From: Microcaldota archaeon
GTDB lineage: Archaea > Micrarchaeota > Micrarchaeia > Anstonellales > Bilamarchaeaceae
Length of the DNA: 39,527 bases
Assembly (NCBI GenBank): GCA_023129075.1
Contig: JAGMCT010000003.1
Location: 1 to 39,527 of the forward strand
Direction: 5' to 3'
Shown here: piece by piece, positions 5,951 through 39,527 of the stretch
How positions within the stretch are numbered: the stretch's first letter is position 1
Layout: each line of letters begins with the position of its first letter
The notes under the pieces: generated by a model
Databases searched by the model: none
What the model saw: only the letters and a program-made list of their open reading frames with translations
Told to the model about the DNA's origin: nothing
Translations under genes and position numbers: made by a program

Positions 5951-6769
5951 ATGAGACTACCTGCTGTTGCCGGCCAGTTTTATCCGGTTTCCACCCGGGA
6001 ATTAGGCAAGATGTTCTCTTCTTTCTTTGACAGACAAATCCAAAAAAAGAAAGCTTATGGAATTGTTTCTCCGCATGCTGGCTATGCCTACTCCGGAAGA
6101 ACCGCAGCCCTTGCTTTTGCTTCAATAAAAAACCTTCTTTCTATAGACACTGTAATTTTTATAGGTCCGAACCACACAGGAAAAGGAGAGATGGTTTCTA
6201 TTTCCCTGGAAGACTGGCAGACTCCCTTAGGTATTTCACAGAATAACCGAACCCTTGGCCAGGCAATAATAAATAATTCCAATTTCATCTCCCATGATGA
6301 AGAAGCGCACAGATGGGAGCATTCAATAGAAGTCCAGCTTCCATTCCTTCAATTTCTTCATCCCAAAGCAAAGATAGTTCCAATCTGTATGCTTGCACAG
6401 GATATTGATGCGGTAAGAGATGTAGGAGAGGCCATTTACGAAGCAGAAAAGGAAACCAATTCAAATTTCATCGTAGTTGCAAGCTCTGATTTCTCCCATT
6501 TTATTCCTGCAGAAGAAGCAGAAAAAAAAGACAAAAAGGCAATAGAATTCATAGAAAAATTGGATTATAAGGGTTTCCAGAAATATGTTGAAGAAAACAA
6601 TATTTCTATCTGCGGACAAGGTCCAATTGCTTCCCTTATGTATTATATTGAATTAAAAGGGGGGAAAAAAGCCGAGCTTTTGGAATACACAAACTCTGGT
6701 GCAACAACAGGAGATTATAGAAGCGTGGTTGCATATGCTTCCCTCCTTTTCCCAAAGGTGATTCCATGA
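5951..6769 (+). CDS. MEMO1 family protein (AmmeMemoRadiSam system protein B)
   Basis: This 272-aa protein matches the MEMO1 family in length and motifs: N-terminal LPAVAGQFYP, SPHAGYAYSG (His42), FIGPNHTG (His75), HSIEVQLPFL, SSDFSHF, and C-terminal SGATTGDYRSVVAYAS. These histidines line the family pocket, whose fold resembles LigB-type extradiol dioxygenases. The biochemical role in archaea is not established. Bacterial and archaeal relatives occur with AMMECR1 and a radical SAM enzyme, and both partners are present elsewhere in this window. A TTTTAATA box at about 5925-5932 sits 26 nt before the ATG, so the mRNA is probably leaderless. Its stop overlaps the next start in ATGA, implying translational coupling to the isopentenyl-diphosphate isomerase gene. 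Confidence 0.93.
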   Translation: MRLPAVAGQFYPVSTRELGKMFSSFFDRQIQKKKAYGIVSPHAGYAYSGRTAALAFASIKNLLSIDTVIFIGPNHTGKGEMVSISLEDWQTPLGISQNNRTLGQAIINNSNFISHDEEAHRWEHSIEVQLPFLQFLHPKAKIVPICMLAQDIDAVRDVGEAIYEAEKETNSNFIVVASSDFSHFIPAEEAEKKDKKAIEFIEKLDYKGFQKYVEENNISICGQGPIASLMYYIELKGGKKAELLEYTNSGATTGDYRSVVAYASLLFPKVIP

Positions 6770-7767
6770 CCACGGAAAAGAGAAAAAAAGACCATCTTTC
6801 AATTGCACTGCGCAAGGAGAGCCAATATATAAAATCTGCACTTTTTGAAGAGGTTGATTTTGTCCACAACGCACTCCCCGAATTGGATTTGGAAGATGTT
6901 CAGTTGAAGGTTTCTTTCCTTGGAAAGGAGGTATTTCCCCTTCTTATTACTGGAATGACTGGTGGAAATCCATCCACAAAAAGGATAAATCTTGCCCTTG
7001 CAGAGGCAGCTGAAAAACACAATCTTGCCTTTGGAGTCGGAAGCCAGCGCGCTATGGTTGAGAATCCCTCCCTTACAGATACTTATAAGGTAAGAAAGGC
7101 TGCACCTTCCATTCCATTATTAGCGAATATTGGTGCTGCCCAGCTTCTTTCTTATCCTCTCTCTACTCTTGAAAATATTGTTTCTTCCATAGATGCAGAC
7201 GGCCTTGCCATCCATCTTAATGCATTGCAGGAGGTAATCCAGCCTGAAGGAGACAGGAATTTCAAAGGTATTCTTGAGAAGATAAAGGAAATCTGTGAGA
7301 AAGTTTCAACAAAGATAGTTGTAAAGGAAACAGGTGCAGGAATCTCCCGTCCTGTTGCTCTGAAATTAAAGGAAGCAGGCGTAGACTGGATAGATGTTTC
7401 TGGTGCAGGCGGAACCTCCTGGAGCAAGGTAGAATACAAAAGAGGCAAAGCAGTCCCTGGTTTCGGTGAATGGGGAATCCCTGCTGCAGCCTCCATCTTT
7501 ATGTGCAGGGAAACTGTTTCCCTTATAGGAAGCGGGGGCATAAGAAACGGAATTGACTGTGCAAAGGCTGTTTCCCTTGGTGCTGATATGGCAGGAGCTG
7601 CCAAACCATTCTTCTCTGCTCTTAAAGCCAAAAGACTGGATGAGGAGATAGAACTCTGGAAATCCCAAATGAAGCTTACTGCTTTCCTCACAGGAAGTAA
7701 AACCCTGAAAGAGTTACAGCAGGTTTCCCTGGTTATGGGTCCCAACTTAAAAAGATGGCTGAGCTAA
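6766..7767 (+). CDS. fni: Type 2 isopentenyl-diphosphate delta-isomerase
   Basis: This FMN- and NAD(P)H-dependent enzyme interconverts isopentenyl and dimethylallyl diphosphate, which feed archaeal membrane-lipid synthesis. The 333-aa length and motifs fit IDI-2: LITGMTGG near residue 65, GVGSQRAM, ANIGAAQL, HLNALQE, VVKETGAGISRPVA, VSGAGGTSWSKVE, and the FMN phosphate-binding GSGGIRNGIDCAKAVSLGAD. The start overlaps the MEMO1 stop by 4 nt. Its 3' end overlaps by 4 nt with the convergent resolvase gene. MEMO1 genes lie beside mevalonate/isoprenoid genes in many archaea, as I recall. Confidence 0.97.
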   Translation: MTTEKRKKDHLSIALRKESQYIKSALFEEVDFVHNALPELDLEDVQLKVSFLGKEVFPLLITGMTGGNPSTKRINLALAEAAEKHNLAFGVGSQRAMVENPSLTDTYKVRKAAPSIPLLANIGAAQLLSYPLSTLENIVSSIDADGLAIHLNALQEVIQPEGDRNFKGILEKIKEICEKVSTKIVVKETGAGISRPVALKLKEAGVDWIDVSGAGGTSWSKVEYKRGKAVPGFGEWGIPAAASIFMCRETVSLIGSGGIRNGIDCAKAVSLGADMAGAAKPFFSALKAKRLDEEIELWKSQMKLTAFLTGSKTLKELQQVSLVMGPNLKRWLS

Positions 7768-8153
7768 AAAACAAGCTCCTGAAGACTTCTTCCTATTAAT
7801 TTTGCATTCTTCCAGTTTATAGAATAACTTCCTTTATTTTTTTTGAATACTGAAAGAGGAATAAACACCCACTGTTCTCTTTTTCTTCTCCACCCTATAT
7901 AACTGGTTATCCCTGTTGTCTCCTCCCATTTCACAAGATTCTCAAACTGCTCTTTTTTTATTGCAAGATTCTCTGTTTCAATTGCCTTGCTTTCTATCGC
8001 ATACTGCATCCCTTTTTTGAATGCCATTAAATCCGGGCTCAGGGAGGAAACTCCGCTTCCTGCCGCTCTTATCACAGCAAATCCCCTGTCATGAAAGTGT
8101 TTTATCAATTCCCTTTCTGCTGCAGAGCCTTTTCTGTATCTCCAAAAAGCCAT
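7764..8153 (-). CDS. hjc: Holliday junction resolvase Hjc
   Basis: Archaeal Hjc cleaves four-way DNA junctions during recombination and fork repair. This 129-aa protein has the PD-(D/E)XK nuclease arrangement: KGSAAERELIKHF with the N-terminal Glu, an AAGSG turn, SPDLMAF with the metal-binding Asp, and YAIESKAIE giving the ExK pair. Downstream KEQFENLVKW is typical of the family. A frame extended by three codons would start at TTG 8162; I chose the ATG at 8153 as the usual start codon. The gene converges with fni, and the stop codons overlap. It lies about 50 nt downstream of the 315-aa unknown gene on the same strand. Confidence 0.93.
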   Translation of the reverse strand: MAFWRYRKGSAAERELIKHFHDRGFAVIRAAGSGVSSLSPDLMAFKKGMQYAIESKAIETENLAIKKEQFENLVKWEETTGITSYIGWRRKREQWVFIPLSVFKKNKGSYSINWKNAKLIGRSLQELVF

Positions 8154-31723: not shown

Positions 31724-32773
31724 ATGGAAGGTAAAGCAATTCTCCCGGATAAGATAAATGGACTCAATAAGAGAGGAGAGATATATGTTTCTTCTCCAGA
31801 GGCAATAAAAAATACTCTTGAATCTTACAAGGTGGACTCCGCTGATTTAAGGGGCAAATACAAGGATATTGGAGGTCAAAAAACTACTCTGATTGCATCC
31901 CATAAGATGCAGCACCCCGTGCTTATGGTAGGACCTACAGGAACAGCAAAATCCCTTCTTGTGCAAACCTATTCTGCAGAAAAAGAGCTTCCTCTTTTAT
32001 GGGTTTCAATGAACGAGGATATGACAGATGCAAAATTAAGAGGACATAAAACAATAGCAACCATTCCTTATCAGTTGAATGGAAGGGTTGATGCTCTTGA
32101 AATAACTGCGTTCAGTCCTGCCCCCGTTGCACTTGCTGCTCTTTCTTCTGAGCCGGTAATAGTTTACCTTGATGAGCTTCACAAAATGAGAGAAGGAATA
32201 AGCTCTCTGCTCCATTCAATAACAAACGAAAGGATTGTTTCTTTTCCTGAATTTGGAGGAGAGCAGATAAGGATACATCCGGAGACATTGGTTGTTGCTG
32301 CACTTAATCCTAATTATGGTGCAGGAATAATGGCAATAGACCCCGCCCTTAGAAGAAGATTTGTTCATCTGCTATTTGATTATCCAAATTCAGCAGAAAT
32401 TGTAAAGGAAATTGTCATGGGAGACCTTGAGGCAAGGAATGAACTGGATAATTCAAACAAGGGAGAAATAGAAAAGATAGTCGGTCAGCTCTCAAAGGTT
32501 GTGCACGACCTTATACTAGCATTTAAGCACAAGGATGACAAACATCTTTCTGCAGATGTTACAAAGATATACTCTGAGATTCAGAGAGACAGGATTGAGG
32601 CAATGATAGAGGCGCCTTCGCCCTCTCTTGTAACTGCTGCAGTTGAGCTTTACCTTGCAGGACTTCCTTTGAAAGATGCTGTTGACCAGGCTCTTATCTG
32701 TCCAATAGTGGATGACTTCGGAAGCGTAAGGAAAGGCCTGACCACGTACGTGAGTAACAAGGTAACGATTTAA
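31724..32773 (+). CDS. MoxR-type AAA+ ATPase
   Basis: The 349-aa protein is an AAA+ ATPase of the MoxR/CobS type: Walker A GPTGTAKS (residues 70-77), Walker B VIVYLDELHK (Asp150, Glu151), a pre-sensor VAALNPNYG and an arginine-finger region DPALRRRF. MoxR proteins work with VWA-domain partners to remodel or load cofactors into target proteins. That matches the downstream gene, which starts 19 nt after this stop behind a GGAGGAACC sequence. The substrate is unknown. The pair resembles CobS-CobT and gas-vesicle or NorQ-NorD arrangements, but the partner's HExxH motif sets it apart. Confidence 0.9.
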   Translation: MEGKAILPDKINGLNKRGEIYVSSPEAIKNTLESYKVDSADLRGKYKDIGGQKTTLIASHKMQHPVLMVGPTGTAKSLLVQTYSAEKELPLLWVSMNEDMTDAKLRGHKTIATIPYQLNGRVDALEITAFSPAPVALAALSSEPVIVYLDELHKMREGISSLLHSITNERIVSFPEFGGEQIRIHPETLVVAALNPNYGAGIMAIDPALRRRFVHLLFDYPNSAEIVKEIVMGDLEARNELDNSNKGEIEKIVGQLSKVVHDLILAFKHKDDKHLSADVTKIYSEIQRDRIEAMIEAPSPSLVTAAVELYLAGLPLKDAVDQALICPIVDDFGSVRKGLTTYVSNKVTI

Positions 32774-32792: not shown

Positions 32793-35765
32793 ATGAAATT
32801 TAGGAAGATTGGGGATAAAAACGAAGGAAATAAAAAAGTACTTCAATTCCCATTCAAAAAAAGAAAACTTTCCTCGGACAAGGATTACAAACAGGCTCTT
32901 CTTGAGATTGTAAAGGATACCGGAAATATTGCCCTTCTTGCACTGCTTGAAGGCGAAGCGGTGTTTAAGAAGATTGAAGAAGAGGAGGATAAACCGAGCG
33001 AAGGAGAGGAGGAGAATAAGAAGCCCGAAAAAAAGGTAAAGCTGATAGAGCTGCCTAAGGTAAACATACAGAAGATTGTAGACGCCAACAAAGACCTTAA
33101 CCTATTTGAAAGAAAGGTCCTTTACCTTAACGGAATTATTTCTCATCTTATTGATGAAGGGCAAAATGCAGTAGTTGTGGAATTTTTTATTGTAAAGGAC
33201 AATGAAGGCAGTTTGGTAGGAAATCCCGAAACAATAGAAAAACTACTTACAAGCTCTACATGGAAGGTTGCAAATCTTTACTTCTCCATAGATACTCTTT
33301 ACGATATGGCCTGCTATAATATGTTTATTGATATTTTAATAGAAAATATGGACCACACCATTTACTGGAAGCCATTTCTTGATGAGATAAAGGACCTGCA
33401 TCCAAGCGAGCAGTTTGCTGTTCTTATTGGTGCAGATGATGAGGGAAAGCTTGATATATACATAAAGCAATGGATTGAAAATACGGCAGTTCTTTATGCA
33501 GAGGCTGTTGAAGGAGGGGGGTTTGAAGTAATAGCAAGGATTCTGAGCCATGGGGCTGAACTTAAGGTGGAGCAGATAGAAGGAGAGGAAGGACCACATA
33601 CAACAATCAATGGAGATATATTCCTTCCGCCTTACAAGAACAGGTTTGATACCAGAGAACTCAACCTAATCAGCTATGAAACAGACCTTTACCATGAAGC
33701 AGGACATCACAGGTATGCTTCCTTTGAAATAAATCTTCATCCGGATGCCCTTGATTATAAGGTGCTTGGACTAGATGCAGAGATAGTTCCAAAAAAGAGA
33801 ATGTTCAGAAAAGGAGAGCAGATTCGTACTTCTATTGGAGGAAAGGAAGATACCATTGAAGTTGCTGAAGACTGCGAGGGTTTTCTGCTGACCTCAAGAA
33901 AAGATGGTTTACAGTCAACCGAGATTCATTTCCCTATAAGGAATTACAATGATGTGGGGAGAATGTTCAAATACCCTCAGCTTTTTTACTTTCTTCATAA
34001 TATTTATGATGACAGAAGGGTTGACCACTGCACGGTTACAGAGAATCCAGGCCTTAGCAAGAAATACGTAGAGGATAAGCTTGCCTCGCTCAAAAAAAGG
34101 CCCGAGTTAAAATCCCTAATGGAGCAGACAGAAGGAGACATGGAAGAAAGGCAGAACGAATTTCAGATTGTTCTTGAGCTTGCACTCCAGAAGATAATAA
34201 CAGGAAAAACAAAAGAAGAAATTCCCCCTGAATACAAGGATAATGTTAATGAACTCTACTTTCTTGCCCTTGAGATGGATTCAGTAATAGCATCTCTTGA
34301 AGATACATTCCATGATATTAAAGGCAATCCGCTCACAGACGGTACAGATTCATTCAATGTTTCTGCAAAGGCATACTATGTTCTTGAGCCCCTTGTTGAT
34401 GAGATAGCAAAAAAGATGGGCAGGGAGCTTAAGAAGGAGGACATTCCCGAGGACATGAGGGGTTCCAGTACAGACCTAAGCAACCCCAGTTCAAGTCCAC
34501 AGGTAAAAAATAAGAAGCCGTCCAGAAAGAAAGGTTTCAATCCCCTTGGGAATCCATATGATGATTCTCAACAGCAGGATTCGGAAGAAGGAGAAGACCC
34601 CAATGGAAAGGAGGGAGAAAAAGACCCGTTCCAGCCAAAGAGAGAAAAGAAACCTGGAGAAGGCAAGGATAAAGAACCCAAAGAAGGAGACAAGAGAAAA
34701 GAAGGAAAGGAAAATAGTGAAAAAAATGACAAAAAAGGAGAAGGAGAAGAAAACGACAAGAAAGCCAAAGGAGAAGAAAATGATGGGAAAGAGCAGGATA
34801 AGAAGGAAAACCAGTCCTCTGAAGATAAATCCTCAAAGGATTCTGGACCTGTTGAAAAGCCCCAGCCATACACAAAAGGAAAAAAGGAACACCATTATGA
34901 TGAATGGGTGGAAAAGGATAATGAAAAAGGATACAAAAAAGCCACAGCAAAGGTAACCGAAAGATTCAGCAGAGAAAAGGAGAAAACAAATCCGAGTAAG
35001 ACACTTGCTGACAGGATTTCAAGGATGTTTCTTCCGCATGCTCCGAAAGAAGGAAAATTAATAAGACCTATGGATTCAGGAGATATAGATATAGAACTTT
35101 ATAACGAATGGAGGACTGCAAAAAAAACAGGAACGATTCTTCCTCCGGATTATTATTCAACAGTAGAGCACAGAAAGAGAAGCGTTAGGGTTCTCATACT
35201 TATAGATGGAAGCCAGTCCATGGAAGAAGGCCAGAAACTGCAGACAGCCTTTGATTCAGCAGCGCTTGTAGGAACTGCAGCAAATATCCTTAAGGATAAA
35301 TTAGAGGTTTATGTAATGGCAGGAGGCAGGGATGTGGATTTCGTAGTCTGTAAAAAAGAAGAAGAAAAAGATGTTTTTCTTCCAAAGGACAGGCCCAGCG
35401 GTGCAACACCTCTTGCAGCTTCCATAAGGCACGTAAATGCAAGGGCCCAGTACCTTAATAAAAAGAATCCAAAGAAGTTTACCCATGTTATAGTAATTAC
35501 AGACGGTCAGCCAAATTGCTCTGAAACCCCTGTGCAGAATACAATGAGAGCTGTTGAGGAGATAAGAAAATCAGGGATTGGAAAGATTCCGCCTTCAGTA
35601 TTCGGAATAACTGTTGCAGGGAGTGATTCAGAAAAAGAGAGTTTTACAAATACTTACAGGGAAATATTCGGACCCCGCGACTTCAGGTGCATAAGAAGCA
35701 TAAACCAGCTTCCAAAGATTCTTATTGATTATTACAAAAGAAGGATTTTTCCGTTTGCAAAGTAA
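32793..35765 (+). CDS. Large VWA-domain protein with HExxH metallopeptidase-like motif
   Basis: The 990-aa protein has four visible parts. (1) A helical N-terminal region (about 1-245) is repeated as a separate protein at 35862. (2) A central region holds YETDLYHEAGHHRYA, with His301-Glu302-Ala-Gly-His305 as a zinc-type HExxH, and about 100 residues later NIYDDRRVDH (Asp406, Asp407) as a possible third ligand. (3) A long Lys/Glu/Asp linker covers about 560-705. (4) The C-terminal VWA domain has MIDAS motifs LIDGSQS (Asp805), GATPLA and TDGQPN. The plan resembles CobT-like or DUF2201-type putative metallopeptidase/VWA proteins. It probably acts with the MoxR ATPase. Protease activity is inferred from the motif only. 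Confidence 0.85.
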   Translation: MKFRKIGDKNEGNKKVLQFPFKKRKLSSDKDYKQALLEIVKDTGNIALLALLEGEAVFKKIEEEEDKPSEGEEENKKPEKKVKLIELPKVNIQKIVDANKDLNLFERKVLYLNGIISHLIDEGQNAVVVEFFIVKDNEGSLVGNPETIEKLLTSSTWKVANLYFSIDTLYDMACYNMFIDILIENMDHTIYWKPFLDEIKDLHPSEQFAVLIGADDEGKLDIYIKQWIENTAVLYAEAVEGGGFEVIARILSHGAELKVEQIEGEEGPHTTINGDIFLPPYKNRFDTRELNLISYETDLYHEAGHHRYASFEINLHPDALDYKVLGLDAEIVPKKRMFRKGEQIRTSIGGKEDTIEVAEDCEGFLLTSRKDGLQSTEIHFPIRNYNDVGRMFKYPQLFYFLHNIYDDRRVDHCTVTENPGLSKKYVEDKLASLKKRPELKSLMEQTEGDMEERQNEFQIVLELALQKIITGKTKEEIPPEYKDNVNELYFLALEMDSVIASLEDTFHDIKGNPLTDGTDSFNVSAKAYYVLEPLVDEIAKKMGRELKKEDIPEDMRGSSTDLSNPSSSPQVKNKKPSRKKGFNPLGNPYDDSQQQDSEEGEDPNGKEGEKDPFQPKREKKPGEGKDKEPKEGDKRKEGKENSEKNDKKGEGEENDKKAKGEENDGKEQDKKENQSSEDKSSKDSGPVEKPQPYTKGKKEHHYDEWVEKDNEKGYKKATAKVTERFSREKEKTNPSKTLADRISRMFLPHAPKEGKLIRPMDSGDIDIELYNEWRTAKKTGTILPPDYYSTVEHRKRSVRVLILIDGSQSMEEGQKLQTAFDSAALVGTAANILKDKLEVYVMAGGRDVDFVVCKKEEEKDVFLPKDRPSGATPLAASIRHVNARAQYLNKKNPKKFTHVIVITDGQPNCSETPVQNTMRAVEEIRKSGIGKIPPSVFGITVAGSDSEKESFTNTYREIFGPRDFRCIRSINQLPKILIDYYKRRIFPFAK

Positions 35766-35861: not shown

Positions 35862-36488
35862 ATGACAAGTAAATTAGGAAATAAGGAGTTAAGAAATAAG
35901 GTAAGAGAAAGAAAAAAGCATATGTCTCTAGCTGAACTAGCTGAAAGGGGCACAATTAAGTTAAAACCACACACAGCCAAAGAAATCGAGCTTTTAAATA
36001 TTGTTAGGAGCACCAGAAATACACCTTTGTTTGAATTGATGGCGAATATGGATAGTTCTGATATGAAGCAGATAGTAAAAACGAATAAGAATACTGCCGT
36101 TTTTGAGAAAAAAATTAAATGGATTAATGCTATTACTATGGAATTAGTAAATAGAGAATGGTTTTCTTCGATTACTAATTTATTTGCTGGAAAAACAACA
36201 GAAGAGAAACTGGTTGGCAACCCAGCCTCAGTCAAGAAATTGCTCGTATCCGATATAAAAAACATCAAGAATGTCTATTATGCGCTGGACTTTTTCAAGG
36301 ATGATGGTTCACTCTACTCTGTTTTCGTTGATAATGTAATTAAGTATACAAAGCTTTCTCCTGACTGGAAGCCATTACTGGATAAGATAAAAAATATGGA
36401 ACCCGCCGAGCAATTCTCGGTTCTTCTTGGAACTCATGATAACTCTGGGTTTGTTAAGAAGTTTGTAGAAAACAATACTAAGCAATAA
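35862..36488 (+). CDS. Stand-alone paralogue of the N-terminal region of the HExxH-VWA protein
   Basis: The 208-aa protein aligns with about residues 30-245 of the protein at 32793. Shared positions include the LVGNPxxxxKLL block, the NxYxxxD block, WKPxLDxIK and PxEQFxVLxG. It stops before the region holding HExxH, and has no linker or VWA domain. It ends with its own stop, has a GGTGA ribosome-binding site and a promoter, and is followed by a terminator hairpin. It therefore looks like a functional gene and not a decayed fragment. It could bind the same partner as the large protein and act as adaptor or competitor (inference). Confidence 0.82.
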   Translation: MTSKLGNKELRNKVRERKKHMSLAELAERGTIKLKPHTAKEIELLNIVRSTRNTPLFELMANMDSSDMKQIVKTNKNTAVFEKKIKWINAITMELVNREWFSSITNLFAGKTTEEKLVGNPASVKKLLVSDIKNIKNVYYALDFFKDDGSLYSVFVDNVIKYTKLSPDWKPLLDKIKNMEPAEQFSVLLGTHDNSGFVKKFVENNTKQ

Positions 36489-36496
36489 ATATATTG

Positions 36497-36537
36497 CAGA
36501 ATATAGGAATTAATCACAAAACTATATTCTGTTTTTT
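36497..36537 (+). terminator. Hairpin terminator overlapping the end of the radical SAM gene
   Basis: CAGAATATAG (36497-36506) and CTATATTCTG (36522-36531) are perfect 10-bp inverted repeats with a 15-nt loop, followed by TTTTTT. This fits an intrinsic terminator for the short paralogue gene. The right arm also encodes the last residues of the convergent radical SAM protein. Confidence 0.6.
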
Positions 36538-37524
36538 CCCGCATTTAGGACACTTTGCTTCTTTTAATTTATTTTCAATCACCCCAAACCCTCTTCTTTC
36601 AATTAACAGTTCCCCGCAGTTATAACAATAGGTGCTTTCGGTTTCCACATCCCCCCTGTTCCCGGTGTAAGCATATCTTACCCCCTCCTCCATTGCAATA
36701 CTTCTTGCCTTCTTCAATGTCTCCAATTTCGTGGGCGGTGTATCCATCATCCTGAACGCAGGATAAAATGCAGTAAAATGCAATGGAATATCCTTATCCA
36801 GCTCAGCAACCCATTTGCTCAATGCTCTTATATCCTCTTCCCCATCATTGTACCCGGGAATTATCAGATTAATCAATTCTATATGCATCACTTTATGCAG
36901 TTCTTTTATATCCTGCAGTACATACTCCAGCTCAACATTGTAGCACAATTCCTTATAGGTTTTTTCATCAAATCCTTTCAAATCTATCCTTGAGGCATCT
37001 ATCAATCCTTTCATCTCTTTTATTGCAGCAGGAGTCATGTATCCATTCGTTACAAATACATTGAATATCCCTTCTTTTTTTGCAATCCTTGCCGTGTCCA
37101 GTGCATACTCCATAAAAATAGTCGGTTCTGTATACGTATATGCAATCCCAGGAAGATTCTTCTCTTTTGTTATCTCCACTATCCTTTCAGGAGAAAGCTC
37201 TTCCCCATGTATCTCTTTAAACGCATTGCTTATATCCCAATTCTGACAGAATTCACATCTAAAATTGCACCCCACAGTTGCAAAGGAAAAAACCTCTGCC
37301 CCAGGCTTAAAATGATAAAATGGCTTTTTTTCTATTGCATCTATATTTGTAGCAACAGCTTTCCCATAATTCAGGGAATATAATTTTCCATCTCTATTCT
37401 CCCTTACTCTGCAGAAACCCCTTGCTCCATCCTCTATCCTGCACATCCTGTGGCATAAATAGCACAATATTTCTTTATTCTCCAATTTTTTATACAGAAT
37501 TGCCTCTTTCATATTCTCCCTCAT
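36514..37524 (-). CDS. amrS: AmmeMemoRadiSam system radical SAM enzyme
   Basis: The 336-aa protein matches the AmmeMemoRadiSam radical SAM family (related to pyruvate formate-lyase activases). It has an N-terminal cysteine set CYLCHRMCRIEDGARGFC, the [4Fe-4S]-binding CxxxCxxC in GCNFRCEFCQNWD (Cys86, 90, 93), YTYTEPTIFMEYA, VTNGYMTPAAI, RIDLKGFDEKTYKEL and a C-terminal zinc-finger-like CYNCGELL/CPKCGKK. It reductively cleaves SAM to make a radical; the substrate is not known. Its ATG overlaps the stop of the hydrogenase gene in ATGA, so the two are translationally coupled. MEMO1 and AMMECR1 partners are elsewhere in the window. Confidence 0.94.
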   Translation of the reverse strand: MRENMKEAILYKKLENKEILCYLCHRMCRIEDGARGFCRVRENRDGKLYSLNYGKAVATNIDAIEKKPFYHFKPGAEVFSFATVGCNFRCEFCQNWDISNAFKEIHGEELSPERIVEITKEKNLPGIAYTYTEPTIFMEYALDTARIAKKEGIFNVFVTNGYMTPAAIKEMKGLIDASRIDLKGFDEKTYKELCYNVELEYVLQDIKELHKVMHIELINLIIPGYNDGEEDIRALSKWVAELDKDIPLHFTAFYPAFRMMDTPPTKLETLKKARSIAMEEGVRYAYTGNRGDVETESTYCYNCGELLIERRGFGVIENKLKEAKCPKCGKKQNIVL

Positions 37525-38633
37525 ATAGGATGTTTTCTTTCGTAATGCCAGTTAAAGTGCAGATGTTTTACTGCTTCTGCACTTCCTGCTTCTCCGAGCC
37601 ATTCCTTATATATCCTTTGCACTATCGGATTTTCAGAAGGAACCCTGCTTTCTTTTGCATCAGCAGCCCCCCGCATTCCTTTTCCTCTTTTTTTTATTTT
37701 TTCCAGTTCAAAAGGCAGAGTCTGGCCAGGTCCTCCAACACAACCCATTGGACAGGCCATAACTTCAATAAACTGCAGGTTTTTTCCTTGTTTTAATTCT
37801 TTCATAATATTTTCAAAGTGGGAAAGTCCGTATACAATAGCAGTATTTAATTTCATTTTCCCTATTTCAACTGTTTTTTCCCTTATACTTTCATTCTTCC
37901 TGAACGCTTCGTCCGGCTCTTCCTTAAGCAAAACAGACAATTGATTTAGAAATGCTTCTGTAAGCCCTCCGGTAACACCAAATATTGTTCCGCTCCTGCT
38001 TCCGCAGGGTAAATACTCAGAGAATTTTCCAGGTTCCATATCCTTTATATCCAATTCTTCTTTTCTTGCCCAATCCCCTAATTCACTGGTAGTTATTACA
38101 TAATCCACATATTTTATCCCGTCTGAATTTCTAAATAATGTTTCATATTTTTTCAATGAACACGGCATTATTCCAACAACTATAATTTCTTCGGGTTTTT
38201 TCCCTATTTTCTTTCCCATATAATATTTTACCACACTTCCTATTGCCATCATTGGAGAAACAATCAGTCCAAGTTGGTTATAAATCTCAGGATACCTCTG
38301 TTTGCAATATCTCCTCCACCCAACACAACAGGAATTAAAATGAGGGTGTGAAAATTTCTTTCCTTTTTTAATCATCTCTGCAAATTGACTGGCTTCTTCA
38401 TAGATAAGCAAATCAGCTCCAAGAGGAGTATCCACCACTTCATAGAACCCAAGTTTTTTTAATAGAGAAATTGTTTTTCCGGTTAAATCCAGCCCGACTT
38501 CCAGTCCGAATTCCTCTCCAATAGAAACCCTCACCGCAGGAGCCAGTTGTGCAACAACTGTTTTTCCGTTTTTGATTTCTTCCTTTATCTTAAGAATAAG
38601 CTCTTTTGTTTTACCCATGTAGATTTCTTCCAT
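37521..38633 (-). CDS. Minimal [FeFe] hydrogenase, H-cluster domain only
   Basis: The 370-aa protein carries all H-cluster signatures: PLGADLLIYEE, L1 NSCCVGW (Cys102, Cys103; canonical TSCCPxW), SPMMAIGSVVK, L2 MPCSLKKYE (Cys158), SGTIFGVTGGLTEAFLN, and L3 EVMACPMGCVGGPGQ (Cys294, Cys298). The C-terminal LHFNWHYERK is like the family's LHTxY end. The four cluster ligands and the proton-relay Cys are present, which argues against a NARF-like relic. No N-terminal ferredoxin or accessory FeS domain exists, so the electron partner is unknown. H2 production or uptake is inferred. A longer frame opens at GTG 38651 within GGTGAG. The TATA box 38664-38655 supports a leaderless ATG at 38633. HydE, HydF and HydG are not in the window. 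Confidence 0.9.
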   Translation of the reverse strand: MEEIYMGKTKELILKIKEEIKNGKTVVAQLAPAVRVSIGEEFGLEVGLDLTGKTISLLKKLGFYEVVDTPLGADLLIYEEASQFAEMIKKGKKFSHPHFNSCCVGWRRYCKQRYPEIYNQLGLIVSPMMAIGSVVKYYMGKKIGKKPEEIIVVGIMPCSLKKYETLFRNSDGIKYVDYVITTSELGDWARKEELDIKDMEPGKFSEYLPCGSRSGTIFGVTGGLTEAFLNQLSVLLKEEPDEAFRKNESIREKTVEIGKMKLNTAIVYGLSHFENIMKELKQGKNLQFIEVMACPMGCVGGPGQTLPFELEKIKKRGKGMRGAADAKESRVPSENPIVQRIYKEWLGEAGSAEAVKHLHFNWHYERKHPI

Positions 38634-38654
38634 ATTCTTCTTTTTTCTCACCTA

Positions 38655-38664
38655 TTTTTATAAA
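38655..38664 (-). promoter_or_regulatory. Promoter of the hydrogenase / radical SAM operon
   Basis: On the minus strand TTTATAAAAA is centred about 26 nt before the ATG at 38633, the spacing for a leaderless transcript. A GGTGA also follows, 14 nt before that ATG, which is too far for an ideal ribosome-binding site. Confidence 0.5.
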
Positions 38665-38719: not shown

Positions 38720-38780
38720 CTTTAAAAAACATTCCCTTAGAACTATAATAACTTTTTTCTATTGAAGAGGTATGAGGTGA
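38720..38780 (+). promoter_or_regulatory. Promoter and ribosome-binding site of EF-1 alpha
   Basis: CTTTAAAAAA at 38720-38729 is a TATA-like box. A strong GAGGTGA at 38774-38780 lies five bases before the ATG at 38786 and decides it over the out-of-frame ATG at 38782. Confidence 0.55.
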
Positions 38781-38785
38781 AATGT

Positions 38786-39527
38786 ATGGCAGAAAAGGAA
38801 CATATGAACTTAGTGTTCATTGGACACGTTGATGCAGGCAAGTCTACCGCAGTTGGTAGGGTACTTTATGATACAGGGGCGCTTCCTGAGCAGGCTTTAA
38901 GAAAGTTGAAAGAGGAGGCAGAAAAGCTCGGTAAGGCAACATTTGAGTTCGCATTTACAATGGACACCCTCAAAGAAGAACGAGAGAGAGGAGTTACCAT
39001 AGATGTTGCTCACAAAGACTTCCAGTCAGCTAAGTATTACTTCACTATTATTGATGCACCCGGACACAGAGACTTCATTAAGAACATGATTACAGGTGCT
39101 TCACAGGCTGATGCTGCAGTTCTTGTTGTTTCAGCAAAAGATGGTGTGCAGCCGCAGACCAAGGAGCATGCATTTCTTGCAAAGGTTCTTGGTATCAAAC
39201 AATTTGTAATTCTCCTTAATAAGATGGATGCTGTGGATTATTCCGAGGATAAATATAAGGAAGTAGAAAAACAGGTTCAGGAGCTTCTTACAAGCATGGG
39301 TTACAAGATGGAGGATGTGAAATTTATTCCAGTTTCTGCTTATTATGGAGACAACCTTGCAAAGAAATCCGAAAAGATGGCTTGGTTCAAAGGACCAACC
39401 CTTCTTGAGGTTCTTGATATGTTTAAGGTGCCTCCAAGGCCTACGGATAAACCTCTAAGACTTCCAATTCAGGATGTATTCACTATAACCGGTCATGGAA
39501 CCGTTCCTGTAGGAAGGGTTGAAACTG
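38786..39527 (+). CDS. tuf: Translation elongation factor EF-1 alpha (3' end outside window)
   Basis: EF-1 alpha (EF-Tu) delivers aminoacyl-tRNA to the ribosome as a GTPase. The 247 visible codons contain the P-loop GHVDAGKST (residues 13-21), switch [32 protein letters not shown] with the catalytic His region, NKMD and VSAYYGDNL, followed by the start of domain 2 ([22 protein letters not shown]). The gene runs off the right edge. No long frame remains on the minus strand here. Confidence 0.97.

Follow-up and report, generated by a model that had tools for sequence, protein, structure and literature searches.

An archaeal H-cluster-only [FeFe] hydrogenase from a genome lacking HydE, HydF and HydG, and a companion membrane protein that may import its cofactor

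Minimal [FeFe] hydrogenases, archaeal and consisting of the H-domain only, have reportedly been found in DPANN archaea. HydE, HydF and HydG are regarded as required for [FeFe] hydrogenase. Hydrogenases without maturases are described in Entamoeba, Mastigamoeba and R. rubrum, and the R. rubrum enzyme has been claimed to be inactive (PMC4967309). In addition, the synthetic complex [Fe2(adt)(CO)4(CN)2]2- matures apo-HydA in living E. coli without HydEFG (PMC6984386).

The window, namely the whole stretch of 39,527 nucleotides analysed here, is contig C19 of an archaeal MAG (G000; assembly of 0.99 Mb, 93% complete). On its reverse strand, the hydA frame (37521-38651) matched PF02906 (E-value 8.6e-72) and the small-subunit tail PF02256 (4e-11), while no ferredoxin-type FeS domain was found in this frame by the same domain search. 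Homologues begin with M-x-DEIYLNK, so that the likely hydA start is the ATG at 38633, giving a HydA protein of 370 aa. Alignment to known [FeFe] hydrogenases placed three motifs on the reverse strand: P1 (NSCCVGW, 38316-38336), with the proton-transfer Cys108 and the cluster ligand Cys109; P2 (MPCSLKKYE, 38142-38168), with the ligand Cys164 and with Lys167 as the equivalent of the [2Fe]-pocket lysine; and P3 (EVMACPMGCVGGPGQ, 37722-37766), with the ligands Cys300 and Cys304. All six residues are invariant across the clade in a 16-member alignment, Cys108 is the first cysteine of the protein, and the equivalent of the proton-path E282 is Gln in the window copy. An archaeal TATA-like box (TTTATAAAAA, 38655-38664, reverse strand) was recognised by eye upstream of hydA. 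The divergent gene on the forward strand encodes EF-1 alpha (38762-39526, cut by the contig end), an arrangement that recurs in a sister genus (six genomes).

The AF2 model of HydA (pLDDT 88) matched CpI in Foldseek with a TM of 0.87 and an rmsd of 2.1-2.5, and the predicted fold is the CpI/HydA fold. Judged by its sequence, HydA is a group-A-like, H-cluster-only [FeFe] hydrogenase H-domain in an archaeon. The initial annotation had described it as an H-cluster-only enzyme of 370 residues with all cluster cysteines and motifs, no accessory FeS domain and an archaeal host, and the domain search, the three motifs and the relatives from the order, which go under the names Micrarchaeota, 'ainarchaeum' or archaeon, bear this out. 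The host being a Micrarchaeota-type (DPANN) MAG, HydA falls among the minimal (H-cluster-only) DPANN hydrogenases, with which it shares the archaeal setting, the restriction to the H-domain and the complete H-cluster motifs. With group A CpI and HydABC it has the H-domain fold and the ligands in common; unlike them, it is devoid of F-cluster domains, belongs to a group with NSCC[IV]GW and GGPGQ variants, and resides in a genome without HydEFG.

The gene directly behind hydA is amrS (36514-37524, reverse strand), whose product matched TIGR04337 at 349.6 bits (cut-off 220). The two genes share an ATGA stop/start overlap (37521-37524), as noted in the initial annotation, and amrS has a second possible start four codons in; AmrS is a bona fide AmmeMemoRadiSam member. 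The further proposal, that AmrS is coupled to HydA maturation or to a modification of HydA, did not survive a survey of neighbourhoods. Specifically, AmrS adjoins HydA in none of the 28 other loci of the order (29 examined, including the window) and in none of 32 HydA loci from GTDB genomes, an outcome that the initial annotation had itself named as refuting its proposal. AmrS is encoded in 65 of the 84 genomes of the order, 36 of the 54 without HydA included, and is missing from the HydA-bearing G079, which is 97% complete. The overlap and the higher frequency of AmrS in genomes with HydA (29/30 versus 36/54, p=0.001, kinship ignored) are what speaks for such a role, and the latter makes a weak shared-lifestyle link possible. 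Since AmrS is a neighbour only here and is common without HydA, the coupling of the two genes is most likely a local feature; AmrS as a hydrogenase maturase does not agree with neighbourhoods and distribution across the order, and it is very improbable that it matures or modifies HydA.

Elsewhere in the order, the AmrS match breaks at the radical-SAM cysteine motif inside a single long open frame of about 600-1090 aa, which is reminiscent of inteins (G043:C32, G042:C100, G037:C135, G046:C54, G020:C19 and G062:C58). Further along the window, a 990-aa VWA protein (32793-35765) lies beside a MoxR-like AAA ATPase (31724-32773), and is followed by a 208-aa ORF (35862-36488) with similarity to a portion of this protein (34% over 140 aa).

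A search of the window's own genome, a check that the initial annotation had called for, found no hydE, hydF or hydG. By sequence, its six radical-SAM proteins comprise AmrS, one Elp3-like, one TYW1-like and one HhH-tailed protein, plus two more long proteins, with neither HydE nor HydG among them, and nothing matched HydF over the cut-off. A canonical HydEFG-matured system encodes all three; on gene content, this genome is not one. The same holds for most of the order. Indeed, PF02906 (HydA) was detected in 30 of the 84 genomes, HydG over the cut-off in 12 and HydF in 2, and HydA occurs together with HydEFG only in G046 and G080, so that 28 of the 30 HydA genomes are without HydEFG. HydABC-type multi-subunit enzymes of the order follow the same pattern. 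MAG incompleteness was rejected as the cause: for the 28 absences, the product is 1.5e-26 if they are independent. HydA without a full HydEFG set is shared with Entamoeba, Mastigamoeba and R. rubrum (PMC4967309); in contrast to the scattered losses in those organisms, the loss is systematic here and is matched by a conserved membrane protein.

HydG was also observed in genomes of the same order without HydA and HydF, where it adjoins a HydE-like protein with an N-terminal HypC domain (MCYAIPG...; PF01455 and TIGR03956). Such fusion loci are L125:7186-9800, L126, L127:7142-9872, L128, L129, L132 and L136, in G028, G023, G044, G027, G029, G031 and G056; L130 (G018) and L131 (G016) carry HydG and a HydE-like protein without the HypC fusion. 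A [NiFe] hydrogenase large subunit is present in 9 of the 10 genomes with HydG and without HydA, and HypF exceeded its cut-off in only 1 of the 84 genomes. This suggests that, in HydA-less genomes, HydG and HydE supply CO/CN for [NiFe] maturation, for which the origin of the CO in anaerobes is still an open question (PMC12134894). Across the order, [FeFe] HydA and [NiFe] PF00374 hardly ever occur in the same genome, both being found only in G020, and weakly.

Clustering of HydA neighbourhoods brought out the membrane protein, c2, of about 185 aa. It is encoded near hydA in 17 loci from several families, with both H-cluster-only and HydABC-type enzymes. When its presence was scored by a genome search with the c2 alignment (A2), c2 was found in 28/28 genomes with HydA and without HydEFG, in 0/2 with HydA and HydEFG, and in 1/54 without HydA (Fisher p 8e-19). 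Unless stated otherwise, our tests count genomes, which are incomplete MAGs, as independent; at the genus level, the association of c2 with HydA gave counts of 17/1/1/15 and a p of 2e-7. The sole HydA-less genome with c2 is G082, and its family member G083 has HydA. Five genera include members with and members without hydA, and in 20/20 of their genomes c2 and hydA are either both present or both absent, for which joint gain or loss, rather than shared descent, is the simplest explanation.

At the distant loci L045, L155 and L168, hydA and c2 stand in tandem, with a spacing of 0-10 nt or a 4-nt overlap. L155 and L168 are archaeal contigs that group outside the window clade (one is labelled Microcaldota), and the pair therefore also exists beyond that clade. 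In g3, the sister genus, the locus reads EF-1alpha/hydA, and c2 either follows hydA immediately or is separated from it by a few genes. In the window's own genome it is AmrS, not c2, that lies directly behind hydA, and c2 is encoded on a separate contig (C4:5894-6430).

One species pair allows c2 and the maturases to be compared in place. G046 belongs to a genus whose other four members have c2 and no HydEFG, and its HydA nests inside the c2-bearing siblings. Comparison with G047 showed flanks of 80-84% identity (G046 L133:757-998 and 5994-6345 versus G047 L210:6638-6872 and 7537-7890), between which G047 has c2 only (L210:6936-7502) and G046 has an M29 peptidase followed by HydG-HydE-HydF. 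In view of these flanks and a fitting composition, contamination was rejected as the source of HydEFG in G046. A second contrast is given by the HydEFG-bearing G080 compared with G013, G014 and G020. One event and one further contrast are direct evidence that the HydGEF cassette and c2 are alternatives, and a functional exchange of c2 and HydEFG is well supported on genomic grounds. The exchange rests on the two genomes with HydA and HydEFG, 88 and 90% complete, and the joint chance that both miss c2 through incompleteness is about 1%.

Searches of Pfam, NCBIfam and PDB sequences gave no useful match for c2, and tblastn gave none against plasmids; PF12822 (ECF_trnsprt) reached an E-value of 0.49 in one of five members and did not match the G000 copy. 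For the L146 copy, the AF2 model (pLDDT 82.8) shows a short N-terminal helix and six long ones. Its PDB hits at a Foldseek probability of 0.99 are ECF S-components only (5edl, and TmRibU with a TM of 0.61/0.67), with weak E-values of 0.14-0.34, and its TM against BioY is 0.52. The modelled c2 therefore matches an S-component-like fold, the match being structural only. Like RibU, BioY and YkoE, c2 has a six-helix fold and a similar size; unlike these S-components, it matches no sequence family, and its presumed substrate is no vitamin but an organometallic cofactor. Lys, Gln and Asn are among the invariant residues of c2 (K129, Q41 and N100 in the L054 copy). Polar residues that never vary lie in predicted membrane segments of the family and, we speculate, would suit an anionic ligand. 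As in shared (group II) ECF systems, c2 is in some genomes unlinked from an A-T module.

A compact ECF operon, conserved in HydA-bearing genera (L238 in G000:C4, and L239-L248), encodes an S-like protein of about 250 aa, an ABC ATPase of about 240 aa and an EcfT of no more than 164-181 aa, which is very short; in G000 it lies at L238:8174-10112, on the same contig as c2. EcfT was recognised in 15 of the 30 HydA-bearing genomes and, within family f1, in 11/17 genomes with HydA versus 0/26 without. With EcfT in about half of the HydA-bearing genomes, the energiser of c2 is uncertain.

The S-component-like shape of the c2 model, together with the HydEFG gap, suggests that the cofactor is taken up and not made. 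On balance, we lean slightly towards the view that HydEFG-less members of the order obtain the diiron cofactor of the H-cluster, or one of its precursors, by salvage through an S-component-like importer; the narrower claim, that c2 itself is a dedicated importer of the [2Fe](adt)(CO)(CN) unit or of a near precursor, is put forward tentatively, at somewhat less than even chances. In such cells, HydA would be catalytically competent and would pass ferredoxin electrons to H2 in a fermenting DPANN archaeon; a gene of the pyruvate:ferredoxin-oxidoreductase type (POR_N) is present in G000. Because HydE, HydF and HydG are missing, the cell would have no means of assembling the [2Fe] part of the H-cluster itself. 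HydEFG-bearing neighbours or hosts would release the completed diiron unit or a near precursor, although we know of no natural release of free [2Fe] unit. The released compound might then be imported by c2, powered by the shared ECF A-T module where this is present, and enter apo-HydA with no help from HydF, in the manner of the synthetic complex in the laboratory. Cells able to take up the [2Fe] unit could do without HydE, HydF and HydG altogether, in agreement with the gene content observed.

Several results count for cofactor import: the absence of HydEFG, the co-occurrence of c2 and HydA, the locus swap, the S-component-like fold and the catalytic residues that HydA keeps despite the absence of HydEFG. 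The uncertain energiser, the purely structural S-component match with its weak E-values, the exchange drawn from two genomes and the Gln at the E282-equivalent count against it. The association of c2 with HydA and its replacement by HydGEF require functional exchange only, and EcfT went unrecognised in roughly half of the genomes. Both points would also fit a reading in which HydA of HydEFG-free cells depends on c2 as a partner, yet c2 does not import the cofactor. Such a protein might import another ingredient for a home-made maturation route, or act as an insertase or chaperone for the cofactor. We consider this unlikely, given the S-component-like fold and, as regards a home-made route, the six radical-SAM proteins encoded by G000, none of which is a CO/CN-forming candidate.

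Less probable again is that c2 ties HydA to the membrane, or carries a substrate or electron partner that has nothing to do with the cofactor, its absence from the HydEFG-bearing genomes being a coincidence. With two such genomes, both incomplete, a coincidence is conceivable, but the in-situ replacement seen between G046 and G047 argues against it, as does the fact that c2 goes with H-cluster-only and HydABC-type enzymes, which have a common cofactor and different electron partners. Slightly more doubtful still is a HydA that has lost its [2Fe] unit and serves another redox or structural role with [4Fe-4S] only, like eukaryotic Nar1/IOP1, in which an N-terminal Cys cluster binds a second [4Fe-4S]; HydEFG would then be gone because HydA no longer carries the [2Fe] unit. 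This would account for 28 of 30 carriers without HydEFG and recalls the similar inactivity claims for the maturase-less R. rubrum hydrogenase (PMC4967309). On the other side stand the invariance of the ligands, Cys108 and Lys167 in the clade, the absence of any cysteine N-terminal of residue 108 that could form a Nar1-like cluster, the same pattern in HydABC-type enzymes, and the regain of HydGEF beside such a HydA in G046.

In a literature search of incomplete coverage, no report was found of an ECF S-component linked to [FeFe] hydrogenase; minimal DPANN hydrogenases and maturase-poor carriers were already known, and what appears to be new is the association of c2 with HydA and its S-component-like fold. 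If cofactor import by c2 is true, c2 would be the first salvage transporter known to handle an organometallic cofactor of hydrogenases, and salvage would offer biotechnology a HydEFG-free loading of hydrogenases. It would also explain how activity is possible in minimal DPANN enzymes, with symbiotic archaea running their hydrogenases on cofactors made by other cells. The combination of intact HydA, absent maturases and a matching S-component-like protein in a whole archaeal order would reveal the H-cluster cofactor as a nutrient that cells can share.
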